NCBI GenBank assembly: GCA_021324155.1
Contig: JAJPJQ010000032.1
Span: 1 to 56,830, forward strand
Length of the DNA stretch: 56,830 nucleotides
Origin: Pseudomonadota bacterium
GTDB taxonomy: Bacteria > Desulfobacterota > Binatia > UBA9968
Direction of reading: 5' to 3'
The position numbers were made by a program, and so were the translations under genes. Below, in pieces: positions 31,553 through 39,025 of this stretch. The stretch's first letter is position 1. Each line of letters starts with the position of its first letter. A model generated the notes under the pieces. The model was not told the origin of the DNA and ran no database searches. It saw nothing but the letters and a program-made list of their open reading frames with translations.

Positions 31553-32310
31553 ACCATCGTTTGCCCGCCGCAGATGTTGATCGCCTGGCCGGTGATGCCG
31601 GCCGCTTTTTCCGAGACGAGATAGAGCACGAGACCTGCGACCTCGTCGGATTCGAGGAATCTCTTGATCGGCACCATCTCGACCGCGCGACTGCGGAACG
31701 CCTCGGGCGTGATGCCTTCCAAGGCGGCGCTCTCCTCGATGCCCTGGCGCGCCATCTCGGTCTCGACCCAACCGGGACAGATCGCGTTCACGGTAATGCC
31801 GCGGCCGACGACTTCCAGCGCGACTGCGCGCGTAAAGCCGATGATGCCATGCTTCGCCGAGCAATAGGCGGAGTATCCCGGCACGCCGAATTTTCCCAGC
31901 ACGGACGAAACATTAATGATCCGTCCATGCGCGTGGCTCTTCATGTATTGGAGAACTTCTCTAGTGACGAAGTAGGAGCCGGTGAGATTCGTCTCGACGA
32001 TGTCGCGCCAGCGGCGGTCGTCGGGATCATCGATCGTCGTAAGGCCTGAGATGCCGGCGTTGTTGATCAGAATATCGATGGCACCCCAGCGCTCGCGGAT
32101 TTTGGCGACGCCGCTCTGTACCTGGGCTTTGTCGCGGACATCCATCTCGACGGGCAGGAACGACTTCGCCGCATTCGCGAACGCGAGATGGCCGGGGTTC
32201 CTCGACGCGACCGCGACGCGCGCCCCGGCGCTTGCGAGCGCTTCGGCGATCGCTTTGCCGATGCCGGTTCCGCCGCCCGTGACGAGCGCGATTTTTCCGT
32301 CGAGACTCAT
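31549..32310 (-). CDS. SDR-family oxidoreductase
   Basis: 253-residue classical short-chain dehydrogenase. TGGGTGIGKAIAEAL binds the dinucleotide, NNAGISG follows near residue 85, the Ser is in INVSSVLG, and the catalytic Tyr-x3-Lys is YCSAK near residue 150. It ends with ITGQAINICGGQTMV, as in FabG/BdhA-like enzymes. It is translationally coupled to the aldehyde dehydrogenase, so the pair may oxidise an alcohol to an acid in two steps. Confidence 0.94.
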   Translation of the reverse strand: MSLDGKIALVTGGGTGIGKAIAEALASAGARVAVASRNPGHLAFANAAKSFLPVEMDVRDKAQVQSGVAKIRERWGAIDILINNAGISGLTTIDDPDDRRWRDIVETNLTGSYFVTREVLQYMKSHAHGRIINVSSVLGKFGVPGYSAYCSAKHGIIGFTRAVALEVVGRGITVNAICPGWVETEMARQGIEESAALEGITPEAFRSRAVEMVPIKRFLESDEVAGLVLYLVSEKAAGITGQAINICGGQTMV

Positions 32311-32415
32311 GCCTAACTAGCTGTAACTCAGGAAATTCCCTATCGAGTTCTATGCGAAAACGCAAGAAAGACAGGATAAGGGCCAGGGGTAACCCGCGCT
32401 ACGCTAGCATATCTT

Positions 32416-33135
32416 CTATTTTCCGCCTGTCGCGACGCGTTTCTCGGTGCGCATTTGTGCCGTGACGAGCGAAAGGACGTCGCGGATACTCTCATCGGGG
32501 TAACGGCTTTGTTTGCACACCGCGTCGAGGTTTGCTTTGACGGCTTGATTGTCGGCATCCGGCCATACTGCGACCCACTTTTCGGATGATGTCTTCAACG
32601 CCGCGCCGATCGCCTTCGCGCCAAGAGAGTAGCCATAGATGAAATGAGCCTTTTCGTTTTCGGGCGTCGACAGGTAATTCGAGCAGCGGAGACTCGCTAC
32701 TAGAATTGCTCGACCCGTATCTGAACGGCCTTCAGCGGACGCAGCCGCCACTCGCGGTTTCCCGTCTTTTCTTTCGGAGATACTGCTGAACGCCACTGGC
32801 AAATTCGTCTTTTTGTTGCCGGTGTACTTGCAGAAAACCGTGAGGGCGCTGTCGAGATTCTCGCTCGAGACTTCTCCTTCCGGCAAGACCCACCAGATGG
32901 GGTGGTCGCGGTCTTCCGGTGGAACGAGCATGTCGCGGCGTTCTTGCTTCAGCCGAGCCTGGACGCCTTCCAGATAACCCGTCGCCAGCGCGGCTCGCGT
33001 CGCGTCCGATAAACGAAGATAATGGCCGCAAGATTGCGCGACGCTGTTTCGGCCGTCGGCCGCAACGTCGCAAATGATACCGATAAGGGCGATCAATCCG
33101 AGCAGACCGAGATAGGGAGCTTGCTGTGTATTCAT
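32416..33135 (-). CDS. Exported protein with two internal repeats
   Basis: 239 residues, no family recognised. After an N-terminal hydrophobic segment (YLGLLGLIALIGIICDVAADG) come two related units of about 90 residues. Unit 1 is SCGHYLRL.. YLEGVQARL.. WWVLPEG.. NLDSALTVFC. Unit 2 is RCSNYLST.. YGYSLGAKA.. WVAVWPDA.. NLDAVCKQ. Each has one Cys near its start and one near its end, suggesting one disulfide per unit in the periplasm. GAGGAG precedes the ATG. It is the last gene of the predicted sigma-54-controlled operon. Confidence 0.75.
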   Translation of the reverse strand: MNTQQAPYLGLLGLIALIGIICDVAADGRNSVAQSCGHYLRLSDATRAALATGYLEGVQARLKQERRDMLVPPEDRDHPIWWVLPEGEVSSENLDSALTVFCKYTGNKKTNLPVAFSSISERKDGKPRVAAASAEGRSDTGRAILVASLRCSNYLSTPENEKAHFIYGYSLGAKAIGAALKTSSEKWVAVWPDADNQAVKANLDAVCKQSRYPDESIRDVLSLVTAQMRTEKRVATGGK

Positions 33136-33170
33136 GATGGCTCCTCAAATGTTGTTCCGTACGAGACACT

Positions 33171-33365
33171 CTAAGAAACACCCGGTATCTTTTCAGATCC
33201 CCGGATGGCTTCTTTTTCGGCGAGGTAAAGACAGTTCGTGCACACCCGCGACCCCGAGGAAAGGCGCGACCGGCGCGTGAAATTCCCCTGCGGCCAGTCG
33301 GGACAATGCCGAAAAAAATGCCAAAATTTAAAATGGCCGATGTACTTACGAAATTCCTTATTCAT
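33171..33365 (-). CDS. Small Cys-containing protein, 64 residues
   Basis: Starts at MNKEFRKYIGHFKFWHFFRH with an excellent SD (AAGGAAGGAG) 7 nt upstream, which argues for a real gene and for this start over an ATG at 33407. It holds one Cys in HCPDWPQGN and a CTNC pair 20 residues later, with several His nearby, so a small zinc or haem/metal site is possible. It sits between the cyclase and the two-repeat protein on the same strand. Not recognised. Confidence 0.65.
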   Translation of the reverse strand: MNKEFRKYIGHFKFWHFFRHCPDWPQGNFTRRSRLSSGSRVCTNCLYLAEKEAIRGSEKIPGVS

Positions 33366-33441
33366 GAGAAGCTCCTTCCTTGTCATTTTCTTGTCGTGCG
33401 CTTTCACGATCGTTCCTACGGCTCCGTTTCACACGGTTCAT

Positions 33442-34251
33442 TCAAGCCGCTTTTCTCACCTGCTTGATATTGAAGACGCTGATGGAGCGGGAGAATCCTT
33501 TGAGACGTAATTCGCCGACCGCTTCGGCTTCGACCATGCCCTCGACCTTGCTCAGCGTCTTTTGAGTCGTGAGGATCTGGCCGCCGTTCGCCTCGTCGCA
33601 AAGACGCGAGGCGAGATTCATCACGCTGCCGATGGCGGTGTATTCCAGGCGTCCGGCGAAGCCGATGTTGCCGACCGCCGCGTAGCCGGTTGCGATACCG
33701 GCGCCCAGGTCGAGCTCCCAGCCTTTCTTGCTCCAGTCGGCGCGCAGCTTTTGCATCCGCTCGCGCGTTCTGACGGCCATCGCTACGGCTCTCTCGGCAT
33801 GGTCTTCGTACGGGACGGGGTCGTTGAAGAAGACCATGATGCCGTCGCCGGTGAAGCGCGCAAGCGTACCGCCGGAATCGACGATCAGATTTCCGATTTC
33901 AGCGTGGTAGGCTTTGAGCGCCTCGAGGACTTCCTCCGGCTCGGCCCGCTCCGTAAAGGCCGTGAAGCCGCGCAGGTCCATGAACACAACCGTGATCTCG
34001 CTCCGATGGCTGCCGAAGCGCAGCGCGTCCTCGTCATTCAGAATCGTCTCGGCGATTTGCGGCGCGATGAAGCGCTTCAGCCGGCTTATTCTCGTGATCT
34101 CGTCCATCTGCAGCGCGATTTTATCGCGCAGTGCGTGCGCCAGACGTTCCCAAGCGCCCTCGCGCGCCGGAGAAGAATATCCTTCGTTCCATGCCGACAG
34201 ATTTGCCGTCGGCATCGCCTCGATGTATGCGGCATATGCGGTCGAATTCAT
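33442..34251 (-). CDS. Class III adenylate/guanylate cyclase domain protein
   Basis: 269 residues. An N-terminal stretch of about 75 residues without a known domain is followed by one catalytic domain. The metal aspartates are in FMDLRGFTAFTE and TGDGIMVFFND. RLEYTAIGSVMNLASRLCDEANGG carries the base- and transition-state-binding residues. It is soluble with no membrane segment and should act as a homodimer making cAMP or cGMP. It begins 13 nt after the Usp-like gene, so they share an operon, probably driven by the sigma-54 promoter at 34825-34840. Confidence 0.93.
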   Translation of the reverse strand: MNSTAYAAYIEAMPTANLSAWNEGYSSPAREGAWERLAHALRDKIALQMDEITRISRLKRFIAPQIAETILNDEDALRFGSHRSEITVVFMDLRGFTAFTERAEPEEVLEALKAYHAEIGNLIVDSGGTLARFTGDGIMVFFNDPVPYEDHAERAVAMAVRTRERMQKLRADWSKKGWELDLGAGIATGYAAVGNIGFAGRLEYTAIGSVMNLASRLCDEANGGQILTTQKTLSKVEGMVEAEAVGELRLKGFSRSISVFNIKQVRKAA

Positions 34252-34263
34252 TGCAGTGGCTCC

Positions 34264-34779
34264 TTACCGCGCGGACGCTACTGCATTCACGCGCGAAATT
34301 TTCGGTTCCGATCGGTATAGAAGGATGGGCGGAATACCCGCTCTGACGCGCCGCAAAAGCCCGAAGCAGAGACGAATCAGCTCGAGCGTCGTGCTGCCGC
34401 TCGCCGTCGAGAGCAGGAGGATTTGGAAATCGGGATGCAGCAGGTACTCACGCAGCAACCCGCTCAAGCTCCCCCCGACGGCGACGGCCGTTTCGACGCC
34501 TCGTTTCGCGAGCGCCCAGCGGACCCTTGCGATCTTCCGCTCCGCCAAACGCTTTTGCTCTTCCCACGCATACCGTGCCATGAGCTTTTTTCCTTCGGCC
34601 ACGGCTTTGGTTGTCGATTCGGTGACGATCCAGTGGTCGCGAATCCAGGTCCAGATATCGACAGGGCAGGAAAAAACGAAAGTTACCTTCGAGCCGGCCG
34701 GGGCGATTCTTTCCAGCACCGGAACGATCTCTTCGACCGACCCGCTCGCATTGATTGGAACCACAAATTCCTCAGCCAT
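34264..34779 (-). CDS. Universal-stress-protein-like protein
   Basis: 171 residues with an alpha/beta pattern like UspA: a first strand FVVPINASGSVEEIV, a second strand in KVTFVFSCPVD, and a later strand QILLLSTASGSTTLELI in the place of the usual nucleotide-binding GxxGxS loop. The similarity is structural in pattern, and the ATP motif is not clear. It has an SD (GGAGG) and is the first gene after a predicted sigma-54 promoter, 35 nt from the expected transcription start. Confidence 0.65.
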   Translation of the reverse strand: MAEEFVVPINASGSVEEIVPVLERIAPAGSKVTFVFSCPVDIWTWIRDHWIVTESTTKAVAEGKKLMARYAWEEQKRLAERKIARVRWALAKRGVETAVAVGGSLSGLLREYLLHPDFQILLLSTASGSTTLELIRLCFGLLRRVRAGIPPILLYRSEPKISRVNAVASAR

Positions 34780-34824
34780 GAGATTTTCCTCCGTTGCTGC
34801 GATGTGACGATGCCCATGCGCTTG

Positions 34825-34840
34825 AGCAAGGGATATGCCA
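34825..34840 (-). promoter_or_regulatory. Predicted sigma-54 promoter of the usp-cyclase operon
   Basis: On the minus strand reads TGGCATATCCCTTGCT. The -24 GG and -12 GC elements have exact consensus spacing (consensus TGGCACGNNNNTTGCW) with matches at TGGCA and TTGCT. It lies 45 nt before the Usp-like ATG and directly downstream of a gene for an NtrC-type activator. Confidence 0.7.
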
Positions 34841-34934
34841 CGCCGACTCGGAAGAATTACCGGAGTCTAAGCTGCTGAATTTTATAGATAGTGGAATCGA
34901 CGGCGCCGATGCGACTGTCGGCGGAGCGGAGGTT

Positions 34935-34956
34935 GAGCTATCTTTTTAGATAGCTC
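34935..34956. promoter_or_regulatory. 22-bp palindrome: candidate activator site and/or hairpin
   Basis: GAGCTATC-TTTTTA-GATAGCTC is a perfect 8-bp inverted repeat. It lies about 110 bp upstream of the sigma-54 promoter, the usual distance for an enhancer-binding site. It also lies 15 nt beyond the stop of the activator gene and could form a termination hairpin there, but no T run follows on the minus strand. A related half site, TATAGATAG, occurs near 34881. Confidence 0.5.
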
Positions 34957-34970
34957 GACTAGCACAAAAG

Positions 34971-36326
34971 TTATAGCCGTATTCCGAGTGTTTTGATGAG
35001 ACGCGAGAGGTAGTTTTTTTCTAGGCCGAGGGCTTTCGCCGCCGCGGTGCGATTGCCTTTGGTCTGATTGAGGGCTCTCAAGATGAGCTGCTTGCGAAAG
35101 GCGGTGACGTCGTCGCGATAGGAGATCGCGGCCGAGCGGCTCGGTGCTTCGGTCCCGGCGATGCGCGGCGGAAGATCGGCGGCGCCGAGTTTCGGCCCCG
35201 TGCCAAGAACGACGGCGCGCTCGATGACGTTGGCGAGCTCCCGCACATTGCCGGGCCAGTTGTAAGAGACGAGCTTCGCTTCGGCATCGGGTGCGATCTC
35301 GTTGAAGTTCTTCTTCGCCTCCGCGGCGAAGCGCTTCACGAAGAAGCGCGCCAGCTCCGGGATATCCTCCTTGCGCTCGCGCAGCGGCGGCAGCACGATC
35401 GGAATCACATTGAGGCGGTAATAAAGGTCCTCGCGGAAGCGCCCGTCGCGCACTGCGGTCTCAAGGTCGCGGTTGGTGGCCGCGACGATCCGCACGTCGA
35501 CTTGGATCGGCTTGGTGCCACCGACGCGCTCGAATTCGCGCTCCTGAAGGAAACGCAGGAATTTCGTTTGCAGCTCTGGCGAGATGTCGCCGATCTCGTC
35601 GAGAAACACGGTGCCGCCGTGCGCGAGCTCCATCTTGCCTTTTTTGAGCTCATGCGCGCCGGTGAACGCGCCTTTTTCGTGGCCGAACAGCTCGCTTTCG
35701 AGCAGCTCCTTCGCCAGGCCGACGCAGTTGATCGCGACGAACGGCGCGTCCTTCTCGGTGCTCCAGTTGTGCACGGCGCGCGCGAAAATTTCCTTGCCAG
35801 TGCCGCTTTCGCCGAGAAGCAGCACCGTCGTGCGGCTCGCGGCGGCTTTTTTCGCAGTATCGATTGCCTGGAGCATCTTGCCGCTCTGAGCCGAGACGAG
35901 CCGATAGCGGTCGCTCACCTGCTCCGATAGTATGCTGACTCCGCGTTTAAGCCGCTCGCGCTCAAGCGCCTTTTTCACGGTAACGGCGATGTGCTCGGGC
36001 TCGAACGGCTTGGGGATGAAATCGTAGGCGCCGTCGCGCATCGCGCGGACCGCGCGCTCGATGGTGGCATAGGCTGTGATCATTACCACAGTCGCGTCGA
36101 GGTCGCGCCGGCGGATCTCCTCCAGAACCTTGAGGCCGTCCATGCCGGGCATTTCGATATCGAGAAACACCAGTCGCGGGCTTTGCTTCTCGATGATCTC
36201 CAGACCCTCGGCTCCATCGCCCGCTTCGAGGACGCGGTAATGCATCGATTCCAACCGGTCCTTCAGGATCTCTCGGATGTCGGGATCGTCGTCCACTACG
36301 AGGATGGTTTCGTCGAAAGACTGCAT
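34971..36326 (-). CDS. Sigma-54-dependent response regulator, NtrC family
   Basis: 451 residues. The receiver domain (residues 5-120) has ILVVDDDPDIREIL and the phospho-acceptor Asp in LVFLDIEMPG. The AAA+ domain has the Walker A GESGTGKEIF, the sigma-54-contact loop GAFTGA, and the Walker B GTVFLDEIGD. A Fis-type helix-turn-helix ends the protein (NRTAAAKALGLEKNYLSRLI). It should activate sigma-54 RNA polymerase when phosphorylated. The ATG at 36326 lies 5 nt after the CheY-like gene. The likely partner is the histidine kinase two genes upstream. Confidence 0.96.
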   Translation of the reverse strand: MQSFDETILVVDDDPDIREILKDRLESMHYRVLEAGDGAEGLEIIEKQSPRLVFLDIEMPGMDGLKVLEEIRRRDLDATVVMITAYATIERAVRAMRDGAYDFIPKPFEPEHIAVTVKKALERERLKRGVSILSEQVSDRYRLVSAQSGKMLQAIDTAKKAAASRTTVLLLGESGTGKEIFARAVHNWSTEKDAPFVAINCVGLAKELLESELFGHEKGAFTGAHELKKGKMELAHGGTVFLDEIGDISPELQTKFLRFLQEREFERVGGTKPIQVDVRIVAATNRDLETAVRDGRFREDLYYRLNVIPIVLPPLRERKEDIPELARFFVKRFAAEAKKNFNEIAPDAEAKLVSYNWPGNVRELANVIERAVVLGTGPKLGAADLPPRIAGTEAPSRSAAISYRDDVTAFRKQLILRALNQTKGNRTAAAKALGLEKNYLSRLIKTLGIRL

Positions 36327-36330
36327 CGTT

Positions 36331-36699
36331 CTAGACGGCAATTTTGAAGACCTTCTCAATCTTCGCCTTCAGCTCGGACCACTCGAAGGGCTTCAGGACG
36401 TATTCATTCGCGCCTTTGCCGATCGTCGCCATCGCCGCCTCGCGCGTGGAAGAGGAGGTGATGATGATGACGGGAATATGCGCATCGGTTTTGCGGATTT
36501 CCTCAAGCGCTTCGATTCCGCCCATCTCCGGCATTTTCACGTCCATGAAGACGCCGTCGAATTTCTCTGCGCGCAGCTTCGCGAGCGCTTCGACGCCATT
36601 CCCGGCGGTCACCACTTCGAAGCCGTAAGCTTCGAGGCGGTCTCTGATGACTTCAAGGATGTCTTCCTCGTCGTCGACGAGCAGAATCTTAAGACCCAT
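36331..36699 (-). CDS. Single-domain response regulator (CheY-like)
   Basis: 122 residues, a receiver only. The acidic pair is in LLVDDEEDIL, the phospho-acceptor Asp in VFMDVKMPEMGG, and the conserved Thr/Ser and Lys in IIITSSS and VLKPFEWSE. There is no output domain, so it works through protein contact or as a phosphate sink or relay. It overlaps the histidine kinase gene by 11 nt. A longer frame to 36852 reads inside the kinase and is rejected. Confidence 0.93.
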   Translation of the reverse strand: MGLKILLVDDEEDILEVIRDRLEAYGFEVVTAGNGVEALAKLRAEKFDGVFMDVKMPEMGGIEALEEIRKTDAHIPVIIITSSSTREAAMATIGKGANEYVLKPFEWSELKAKIEKVFKIAV

Positions 36700-38398
36700 T
36701 CTCGGTGCCTGCGACGCCGGCCCGCGCGGGGGGTTCGACCGGCAAGGTGAATGAAAAAGTGCTGCCCTGTCCAGGCTGGCTTTCCATCCAGATCTTTCCC
36801 CCGTGCATCTCCACGAGCGACCTCGAGATCGAGAGACCCAAGCCGGTGCCACGCGCTTTCTGCCGTCCCGCCGCGGCGACTTGATAAAATTTGTCGAATA
36901 TCTTTTGCGCTTCCTCGGGCGGAATGCCGGGGCCCGTGTCGTCGATCGAGACCTTGGCCCAGCCGTCGCCGTCGCGCCCGACCGCCACGGTGACTTTACC
37001 TTCGGCGGGCGTGAATTTGAGCGCGTTGCCGATCAGATTCATGAAGACCTGTATAATCTTATCGCGATCGGCCCACGCCGTCACCGTCGCGTCCGGGGCT
37101 GCGACTTCTAAATGGATCGATTTGTCCGCCGCGACGGGCCGCAGCGTCTCCGCTACGTCGCGCGCGAGCGGCGCGAGCGCAACCCCCGAGGGCGTGAGCT
37201 CGACCTTGCCGGCCTCGATCGCGGAGAGGTCGAGCAGATCGTTGATGAGACGGGATAAGCGGTCGGTATTCGATTTGATGCGCGTCAGATAACGTCCCTG
37301 CTTGTCGTTCAAAGCGCCGGTGAGCCCATCGAGCATGTTGTCGACCGATCCTTTAATCGCGGTGAGCGGAGTTCGGAGCTCGTGGGACACGCTGGAGACG
37401 AATTCCGACTTCATCGCGTCGAGCTGCTTCAGTCTTTCTTCATAGCGCTTTTTGTCCGTCACGTCCTTCGCGAGATGGAGCAGTCCGGTCAAATGGCCGG
37501 AGCCGTCGCGGATCGGCGAGACCGCCGCCGCGACCTCGATGCGCGCACCGTCCTTGCGCCGCCGCTGCATCTCGAGGTTCCGCAACACGCCGTTTTCTTC
37601 AACGCGCCTGCGGATGTCGTCGAGCTCGCTGTCGAAGCCCGGCAGCAGCACAAGAGCGAGGCTGCGGCCGAGCGCGTCTTCCTTCCGATAGCCGAAGACG
37701 GCTTCCGCGCCGGCATTCCAGGTGAGAATGCGATGTTCGAGGTCCGTGGACACGATCGCGTCGCCGGCGCTTTCGACGAGATTTTCGATGTAGGCTTTGC
37801 CTTCCTTGACCTCTTCGTAGAGGTTCAGGTTGTCGAGCGCCGCACCGAGCTGCGCGCCGAACGCCGTCAATAGGTCGATCTCGTCCTCGGAGAACCGGTG
37901 CGGCCGCCGGCTGCCGACCATTATCATGCCCAGAAACCGGCTCCTGCCCATCGACCGGTTTTTCGACGTGATCGGGACAAACGCGGCCGAGACGAGTCCT
38001 TCTTTCGCCATGAAGCCGTGGCGGAACTTGGGTTCTTTCCGCAAATCGGGAGCGACGTAGGGCGCGAGCGTTTCGTAGACGATTTTCCCGATGCTCTGAT
38101 GCGACGAGTCGAGCGGCACGACGTTGGAGCGAAACTCCGGCGAAGTGAGGCCGCGCGCGGCGCGCACGACGAGATCGCGTCCGTTCGGGTCGAGGACGCG
38201 GATGTATCCGACTTGAAAGCCGAGGATATCAAGCGACTTCTCGAGCGTGTCGTTCAGCACCTGGTCGGTATCGAGCGACTGGGTGGCGGTTTTGGCGACG
38301 GCGAGAAGAGCGCTGAGTGCGCGGGCCGAGCGGAGCGGGTCCCGGCTTCTAGCCGGGCCGGACGGAGGATTTTTTTTAGGAGTCTTTTCCGGTTTCAT
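36689..38398 (-). CDS. Sensor histidine kinase with GAF and PAS domains
   Basis: 569 residues, with no membrane helices, so cytoplasmic. A GAF domain (about 45-195) is followed by a PAS domain (about 210-330; ILTWNAGAEAVFGY). The HisKA dimerisation helix has SSVSHELRTPLTAIKG, and HATPase_c has NLIGNALKF (N box), DTGPGIPPE (G1) and GTGLGLSISR (G2). The family autophosphorylates on the H-box His. Its ATG directly abuts the stop of the upstream 208-residue protein, and two receiver proteins follow, so it probably feeds both. Confidence 0.95.
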   Translation of the reverse strand: MKPEKTPKKNPPSGPARSRDPLRSARALSALLAVAKTATQSLDTDQVLNDTLEKSLDILGFQVGYIRVLDPNGRDLVVRAARGLTSPEFRSNVVPLDSSHQSIGKIVYETLAPYVAPDLRKEPKFRHGFMAKEGLVSAAFVPITSKNRSMGRSRFLGMIMVGSRRPHRFSEDEIDLLTAFGAQLGAALDNLNLYEEVKEGKAYIENLVESAGDAIVSTDLEHRILTWNAGAEAVFGYRKEDALGRSLALVLLPGFDSELDDIRRRVEENGVLRNLEMQRRRKDGARIEVAAAVSPIRDGSGHLTGLLHLAKDVTDKKRYEERLKQLDAMKSEFVSSVSHELRTPLTAIKGSVDNMLDGLTGALNDKQGRYLTRIKSNTDRLSRLINDLLDLSAIEAGKVELTPSGVALAPLARDVAETLRPVAADKSIHLEVAAPDATVTAWADRDKIIQVFMNLIGNALKFTPAEGKVTVAVGRDGDGWAKVSIDDTGPGIPPEEAQKIFDKFYQVAAAGRQKARGTGLGLSISRSLVEMHGGKIWMESQPGQGSTFSFTLPVEPPARAGVAGTENGS

Positions 38399-39025
38399 TC
38401 ATAGCGATCGCCGGTGCGCCTTGAGAAAGGGGCCGCCGACCTCGAAATGCTCTTCCGCAAATCGCACCAGATCGGATTTGGGGAAGCCTGGCCACGAAGC
38501 CCATTCCTTCATCTTCGCGTCGACCGCGGCGGACTGCTTCGGCTTGGATTCAAACGCCAGCGATAAAAGCCCGACGCAGCGCCGCTGCTCGCCTTCGCCG
38601 CCGATGAGAGCGATGAACTTTTGATACATCAAGCCCGCTTTCTGCACCATCATCCTCGACTCAAGGCGCTTCTCCTTGAAGATGTCGGCGGATTTCCAGT
38701 TGCGCTCGACGATTTTTCTGCCGGCGCCCGCGAGCGCCTCCTCGTAGACGCGGGATGGAACGGAATCGCCGACGCGGGAGCGGCCCCAGTCGTCGCCGAC
38801 GCTGCTCTTTCTTCCGAGCCGCTCAGCGACCTGCTTGGCCGCGATCCAGTCGACGAAGACGGGGCGCTTCTCTTCGGTATTGGACTCGTTGAGACGGAGA
38901 TTGAGTTGTTTCGCGCCGAGCCGGCTGAAATCCGCCAGGACTTTTTCCGATAGCTCGCGGATGCCGGCCCACCTGTCGCCCAGGTCGTCGGCTTTCATCG
39001 TCGGTCCGATCGCTTGTCTTTCCAT
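38399..39025 (-). CDS. Hypothetical protein, first gene of the two-component operon
   Basis: 208 residues, not recognised. It is soluble, rich in Lys, Arg and Glu, with predicted helices at 12-45 and about 95-150 and no signal peptide. The ATG at 39025 has a strong SD (GGGGGA) upstream. Its stop (TGA) is immediately followed by the kinase ATG, so the two are translated together. The position suggests a sensory or accessory partner of the kinase, which is inference. An in-frame extension to 39130 lacks an SD. Confidence 0.72.
   Translation of the reverse strand: MERQAIGPTMKADDLGDRWAGIRELSEKVLADFSRLGAKQLNLRLNESNTEEKRPVFVDWIAAKQVAERLGRKSSVGDDWGRSRVGDSVPSRVYEEALAGAGRKIVERNWKSADIFKEKRLESRMMVQKAGLMYQKFIALIGGEGEQRRCVGLLSLAFESKPKQSAAVDAKMKEWASWPGFPKSDLVRFAEEHFEVGGPFLKAHRRSL

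Follow-up and report, generated by a model that had tools for sequence, protein, structure and literature searches.

A class III cyclase gene and a Usp-like gene as the probable output of an adjacent two-component system through a sigma-54 promoter in a Binatia genome

A stretch of 56,830 nt of contig JAJPJQ010000032.1 (assembly GCA_021324155.1; Pseudomonadota bacterium, GTDB lineage Bacteria; Desulfobacterota; Binatia; UBA9968), hereafter the window, carries four genes on its minus strand behind a sigma-54 promoter element. All four open reading frames (ORFs) were confirmed at the positions given by a first-pass annotation made from the sequence alone. The first gene behind the promoter encodes a protein resembling universal stress proteins (Usp; 34264-34779, 171 aa). 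It is followed by the gene of a class III nucleotide cyclase without a receiver domain (REC; 33442-34251, 269 aa), the gene of a 64-aa Cys protein belonging to a family marked by W-H, C, WP and CxxC (33171-33365), and the gene of an exported protein with a hydrophobic N-terminus and two Cys-paired half-repeats (32416-33135, 239 aa). The intergenic gaps are 12, 76 and 35 nt, and the starts of the four genes, as read from the sequence, are preceded by Shine-Dalgarno-like runs. Separate promoters for the genes had been named in the annotation as evidence that would speak against an operon; a scan of positions 32200-35000 on the coding strand showed no sigma-70-like promoter and no terminator-like hairpin within the gaps. 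Searches against Pfam and NCBIfam recognised the cyclase alone (PF00211, Guanylate_cyc, E 1.7e-19), in line with its earlier assignment to class III, and gave no significant match for the other three proteins, including the small CxxC protein and the exported protein that had been described as unrecognised.

The sigma-54 promoter element TGGCATATCCCTTGCT, with GG at -24 and GC at -12, lies on the minus strand at 34825-34840, 45 nt before the ATG of the Usp-like gene (usp), so that the arrangement of four same-strand genes behind a sigma-54 promoter is borne out by both the ORFs and the -24/-12 element. The element is conserved before homologues of usp. Sites were scored against a 12-position consensus in the 150 nt upstream of each homologue found in the relatives, and the controls were 129 other, script-predicted genes on the same contigs. 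The results showed that a site scoring at least 10 precedes 15 of the 19 usp homologues and 2 of the 129 control genes (Fisher 4e-15). Lowering the threshold to 9 raised the count for the homologues to 16 of 19, and two of the three misses were later members of tandem copies. The genome contains a single rpoN gene (one match to PF04552) and 15 strong sigma-54 activator genes.

Upstream of the promoter, on the same strand, lies a two-component locus. It consists of an NtrC-type activator with a receiver, an AAA+ domain and a Fis-type helix-turn-helix (34971-36326; matches to Response_reg, PF00158 and HTH_8, with GAFTGA read in the translation), a single-domain response regulator (36331-36699, 122 aa) and a soluble histidine kinase (36689-38398, 569 aa), which carries GAF and PAS domains and has no membrane segment (maximum KD19 0.84). 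The comparison with relatives covered 58 genomes including the window's own (G000), with a separate sample of the phylum. A search for the activator gave 39 matches in 18 of the 58 genomes, and the surroundings of each match were examined. The set of kinase, lone receiver and activator was found at 8 of the 39, namely in the window, G003:C3, G019:C284, G007:C168, G006:C77, G008:C324, G024:C74 (where the kinase is cut by the contig end) and G004:C53. At seven of the eight loci the gene next downstream is either usp (window, G003, G019 and G007) or the cyclase (G006, G008 and G024), and at G004:C53 there is no same-strand gene downstream of the activator. The window is the only one of the eight in which usp and a receiver-less cyclase occur together. 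These comparisons suggest that the conserved locus consists of a kinase, a lone receiver and an NtrC-type activator, followed by a sigma-54 promoter that would drive usp, the cyclase or both. A companion gene upstream of the kinase (38399-38998, minus strand, 199 aa, no Pfam match) has relatives, 24-31% identical at the protein level, in the same position just ahead of the kinase at all six orthologous loci with enough contig to show it, and its product is possibly an input subunit.

A putative activator site, the palindrome GAGCTATCTAAAAAGATAGCTC, lies between the activator gene and the promoter (34935-34956, minus strand) and is symmetric at 18 of its 22 positions. Its core, TATC-N6-GATA (34939-34952, minus strand), is situated 98 nt before the -24 element and is the sole exact copy in the 56.8 kb of the window. 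A similar spacing was found at other promoters: exact cores lie 99 and 100 nt from the -24 element of usp promoters in G010, and 99 (G006), 96 (G008), 96 (G024) and 117 nt (G001) from that of cyclase promoters, while G007 has a palindrome with one mismatch at 99 nt. The spacing is thus 96-100 nt in six of the seven same-orientation exact palindrome/-24 pairs and 117 nt in the seventh. No palindrome was found at either usp promoter of G004 or at the usp promoter of G001. The locus DNA that was examined contains 30 distinct strand matches to the palindrome, eight of which have a sigma-54-like site (score of at least 9) within 250 nt; seven of these eight precede usp or the cyclase, and the eighth is the opposite strand of the G006 palindrome. 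A palindrome with at most one mismatch at a distance of 80-130 nt was found at none of the 35 re-found genomic sites of a sigma-54 pattern. Between the palindrome and the -24 element, an alignment of nine promoters revealed by eye a second conserved AT-rich box (AAAATTCAGCAGCTTAG in the window; 34866-34883, minus strand), which reads approximately AATTC-AGC-n2-CTTA and is common to several of the nine. A 16-nt site identical to the promoter element of the window also occurs at G000:C16:6050-6065 (L099); it has no palindrome, and the nearest script-picked ORF is 204 nt away and 50 aa long.

The recognition helix could be read in 38 of the 39 activators, one being cut before its C-terminus, and three with cut or aberrant ends were set aside. 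The motif Y[LF][SA]RLI was present in 9 of the 38. Six of the nine activators with this motif (window, G010, G019, G024, G006 and G008) have an exact palindrome in the 500 nt that follow the stop codon. None of the 26 comparison activators does; these are the remaining ones for which both the whole C-terminus and the DNA behind the gene could be read. Because the exact palindrome goes with the helix motif, it appears to be tied to the neighbouring activator and not to another of the fifteen in the genome. At locus L033 (G010:C443, 1687-3569), three tandem Usp-like genes stand behind one activator, and two of them have their own palindrome and sigma-54 site.

The search for the cyclase gave 58 matches in the taxonomic family, of which 30 loci were examined. 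Twenty-one of these encode receiver-fused cyclases, three encode long proteins of another kind and six encode cyclases without a receiver; the fusions were read by eye, with two confirmed by Pfam, and a few frames are broken or have unsure starts. The receiver-less forms are those of the window and G002, both behind usp, and those of G006, G008, G024 and G001, which have promoters of their own. A sigma-54 site scoring at least 9 was present before all four receiver-less cyclases with their own promoter (scores 9-11) and before none of the 21 receiver-fused ones. In G003 the cyclase gene sits between the lone receiver and the activator, and its product carries a receiver that is 91% identical to that of the neighbouring activator and 30-34% identical to those of four ordinary receiver-cyclases, suggesting that this cyclase captured the receiver domain of the activator beside it. 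A cyclase tree grouped the window, G002 and the G003 chimera (support 96/88). A single clade of the locus cyclases gave a p-AU of 0.32, with two receiver-less sequences that lack the anchor motif dropped.

The best solved relative of the window cyclase is CyaB of Pseudomonas aeruginosa (3r5g; E 2.6e-36), with which it shares both metal Asp residues, the transition-state Asn and Arg, and a Thr. The two enzymes differ in the purine pair, which is K/T in CyaB and R/T in the window cyclase; the latter thus does not show the adenylyl-subtype pair of Lys with Asp or Thr. Among relatives the pair is mostly Arg with Gly. Pfam recognised no sensory domain in the window cyclase. At locus L035 (G008:C276, 1111-9168), a receiver-cyclase gene is followed by two genes and by one for a protein with cyclic-nucleotide-binding, TPR and sodium:sulfate symporter domains, after which come an activator and a usp gene with a sigma-54 site; the symporter-domain protein is a possible effector of the cyclic nucleotide.

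Homologues of the Usp-like protein were found in 11 of the 58 genomes, own genome included, all in one taxonomic family, and its profile gave weak partial matches in 4 of 197 other genomes of the phylum sample; a scan of genome contig records with the window protein alone found no relative. The Pfam Usp family matched 2 of 15 members (best E 0.0018) and did not match that of the window. A structural model built from the single sequence, which is poor (pLDDT 48), has the Usp order of strands and helices, and a Foldseek search with this low-confidence model placed the Usp chains 2dum, 4r2k and 1mjh at the top (E about 5e-4), with 5ahw, MSMEG_3811 with cAMP, at rank 43. The motif G-2X-G-9X-(G/S/T) of the ATP-binding Usp subgroup was present in none of the 15 members. 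Near usp homologues at L035, L036, L038, L039 and L047, and divergent from usp, lies another type of sigma-54 activator, judged by eye to be GAF-type, which suggests two independent circuits for the same Usp-like family.

The last two genes of the operon have a different distribution. The exported protein was found in 2 of the 58 genomes, counting its own, and among 345 phylum genomes in its own only. A contig scan, with patterns that reach close relatives only, gave one record with a homologue, JAHFAP010000075.1 ('Deltaproteobacteria bacterium isolate nzgw178', G002). The start of this contig falls within a Usp-like gene (profile E 1.4e-8); downstream are the cyclase (64%), the exported protein (44%) and an SDR gene (72%), then two inserted genes and, by eye from the translations, genes matching the next two of the window; the gap between cyclase and exported protein leaves no room for a Cys gene. 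The two Cys-paired repeats attributed to the exported protein hold up in so far as the only homologue known retains all four paired Cys residues, whereas the profile comparison of the halves is weak (score 22.2, reached by 1 of 100 column shuffles). An AlphaFold model made from two sequences had a pLDDT of 45.6 and gave no Foldseek match at E <= 0.001, and a profile search of the PDB found nothing. Searching Pfam with the homologue and with each of the four halves returned a single weak match, which was rejected as chance level. A likeness to Rap1a/HdeA-like proteins is not claimed.

The gene of the 64-aa Cys protein is considered real because matches across the genome align at shared residues. 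Fourteen other places in its own genome match at E <= 10, nine of them at E <= 0.02, and the 13 paralogues that were read align at R, W-H, C, P and CxxC, which are invariant in the 14 aligned sequences. The family gave 18 matches in its own genome, two of them weak, and 12 of the 57 other relatives were matched, with 0-4 matches per genome. The expanded family includes members at G000:C28, C13, C6, C49, C45, C42 and C2 (L079-L086) besides that at 33171-33365. Several members carry an extra N-terminal part resembling a zinc ribbon, and beyond weak zinc-finger and zinc-ribbon hits to the longer ones, no Pfam family was recognised in the members searched. No upstream sigma-54 site scoring 10 was found for any of the 13 paralogues, one of which has a site scoring 9 at 166 nt. 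The Cys protein was therefore rejected as a signalling partner, its family being scattered over the genome and its paralogues lacking a sigma-54 site at that score; the gene is treated as a local addition to the operon.

Taken together, the comparisons make it likely that the neighbouring two-component system has this operon as its output and acts on it through the palindrome and the sigma-54 promoter. Sequence comparison shows the locus, the promoter, the palindrome with its relation to the helix motif, and the existence of two cyclase forms; from these we infer phosphotransfer, binding, enzyme activity, its product and a physiological signal as follows. Phosphate would pass from the soluble GAF-PAS kinase to the receiver domain of the NtrC-type activator, and perhaps to the single-domain response regulator as well. 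The activator would then bind TATC-N6-GATA about 98 nt upstream of the -24 element and drive RNA polymerase with RpoN to transcribe usp, the cyclase gene and the two genes behind. More cyclase protein would raise the level of the cyclic nucleotide and so act on effectors elsewhere, and the Usp-like protein may act in the same response, possibly through nucleotide binding. Elsewhere in the family this cyclase domain occurs as a receiver fusion that has no such promoter, implying that the enzyme may have been shifted between phosphorylation and transcription as its mode of control. The first-pass annotation was thus right to see a sigma-54 signalling operon and drew its borders wrongly, as the conserved unit appears to run from kinase, receiver and activator through palindrome and promoter to usp, the cyclase or both. 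Cyclase and Usp-like genes under sigma-54 recur in the family; the four genes are not kept as a unit, since the exported protein has a single relative and the Cys gene is missing from the relative's locus. The genes of the exported protein and the Cys protein are narrowly distributed riders on the conserved unit. The annotation also overlooked the palindrome and did not connect the operon with the two-component genes beside it.

Several observations weigh against this interpretation. The pattern TGGCRYN5TTGCW occurs 36 times in the genome (20+16) and a reversed control pattern 35 times (17+18), and because the count does not exceed the control, comparative evidence alone was used for sigma-54 sites. 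G003 has a sigma-54 promoter and no palindrome, and G019 has an exact palindrome before usp with no recognisable -24/-12 element. The helix motif is present in G004 with neither a palindrome nor a same-strand target behind the activator, and in G035, from another family of the class, again with no palindrome; conversely, a one-mismatch palindrome stands behind 3 of the 26 activators without the motif. In the draft of G024 a frame break divides the activator gene, and usp lies beside a receiver-less cyclase only in the window and at one contig-edge locus. In six loci, among them G007, the palindrome is found 21-24 nt past the activator stop, so that its resemblance between loci is partly due to common descent; the second site of G010 and that of the G001 cyclase are at other places. 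Finally, the long branch and the unusual purine pair of the window cyclase, taken up below, also weigh against the interpretation.

Other explanations of the locus were considered. The sigma-54 promoter might drive the Usp-like gene only, with the cyclase and the genes behind it expressed independently. The link between Usp-like genes and sigma-54 is wider spread than that of the cyclase, and usp has no same-strand neighbouring cyclase in G007, nor in the 422 nt of contig remaining in G019. However, the short gap between usp and the cyclase without a sigma-70-like promoter, together with the position of the cyclase itself in G006, G008 and G024, where the same activator with palindrome and sigma-54 site immediately precedes it, renders independent expression improbable. 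It might also be that another activator of the genome works the promoter and that adjacency to the two-component system is incidental. Fifteen candidates are available, and other usp homologues lie beside the different, by-eye GAF-type activator (L035, L036, L039 and L047); yet the exact palindrome goes with the helix of the neighbouring activator (6/9 against 0/26) and the G003 cyclase took its receiver from that same neighbour, and we regard control by another activator as very improbable.

A further possibility is that the cyclase has degenerated or lost its activity and persists as a relict alongside usp. Its branch in the tree is long (0.58) and Arg replaces the purine-specifying Lys, so that its activity is not assured. 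Nevertheless, the frame is intact, the metal, transition-state and Thr residues are all kept, and Arg is the commonest state at the Lys position in the 27 aligned family sequences, which leaves a relict with a low likelihood. The remaining explanation follows the proposal of the annotation that the operon senses envelope state through a cyclic nucleotide, and takes the four genes as a dedicated envelope-sensing module with the exported protein as sensor or effector. The order of cyclase and exported protein is kept in G002, but the exported protein was found in no other of the 58 genomes, the Cys gene is not kept there and its family is scattered, and the neighbouring kinase is soluble, with GAF and PAS domains; envelope sensing is thus unsupported and such a module seems highly improbable.

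Among the closest known systems is NmpRSTU of Myxococcus xanthus, in which NmpR activates a Usp gene (MXAN_3966) through sigma-54 and its own palindromic sites (PMC11841059). Both have an NtrC-like regulator, palindromic sites upstream of sigma-54 promoters and a Usp gene as target. The NmpRSTU sites are GCGCA-N5-TGCGC, two per promoter, whereas one TATC-N6-GATA was found here, and its multi-kinase relay starts at a heme protoglobin sensor, in contrast to the GAF-PAS kinase of the window (PMC11841059). The word cyclase is absent from the main text of the paper, while a class III cyclase is a putative target here (PMC11841059). No exact copy of GCGCA-N5-TGCGC was found in 34780-34975, and two lie elsewhere in the window. 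Among the titles and abstract openings of open-licence literature, no example of a class III cyclase as the target of an RpoN activator was found. The cyclase encoded by cyaA of Pseudomonas putida is reportedly of a different class from that of the window. Transcription of cyaA is likewise affected by a regulator of the bacterial enhancer-binding class, FleQ, whose ATPase activity, RpoN binding and c-di-GMP binding were, in the text available, not needed for complementation (PMC8125075); since RpoN binding is not needed, the FleQ-cyaA link is not sigma-54 activation. A multi-phylum survey of sigma-54 reported UspA enrichment in Planctomycetia, and the sole cyclase passage in its available text concerns the naming of the GAF domain (PMC12316311). 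In mycobacteria, Rv1636/MSMEG_3811 is described in the text available as a cAMP-binding Usp 'sponge', likewise a Usp-fold protein in a cyclic-nucleotide circuit (PMC11107214). Unlike the ATP-binding Usp subgroup, the Usp-like family of the window has no classical ATP motif, and nucleotide binding by it is putative.

A broader reading joins three proposals: that the cyclase was switched within the family between a receiver-fused form under phosphorylation and a receiver-free form under sigma-54, that the G003 receiver is a graft, and that the Usp-like protein, made from the same transcript, serves specifically to bind the cyclic nucleotide. As a whole this is rather unlikely, and binding or buffering by the Usp-like protein is a guess from analogy; if it were true, the source and the buffer of the cyclic nucleotide would be made together. 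The comparison also defines a Usp-like family, clear so far in one taxonomic family, most of whose promoters have the look of sigma-54 promoters. A chimeric cyclase and a DNA site that tracks one form of the recognition helix make the wiring testable, and the locus would represent a signalling enzyme that moves between post-translational and transcriptional control, apparently within one pathway.

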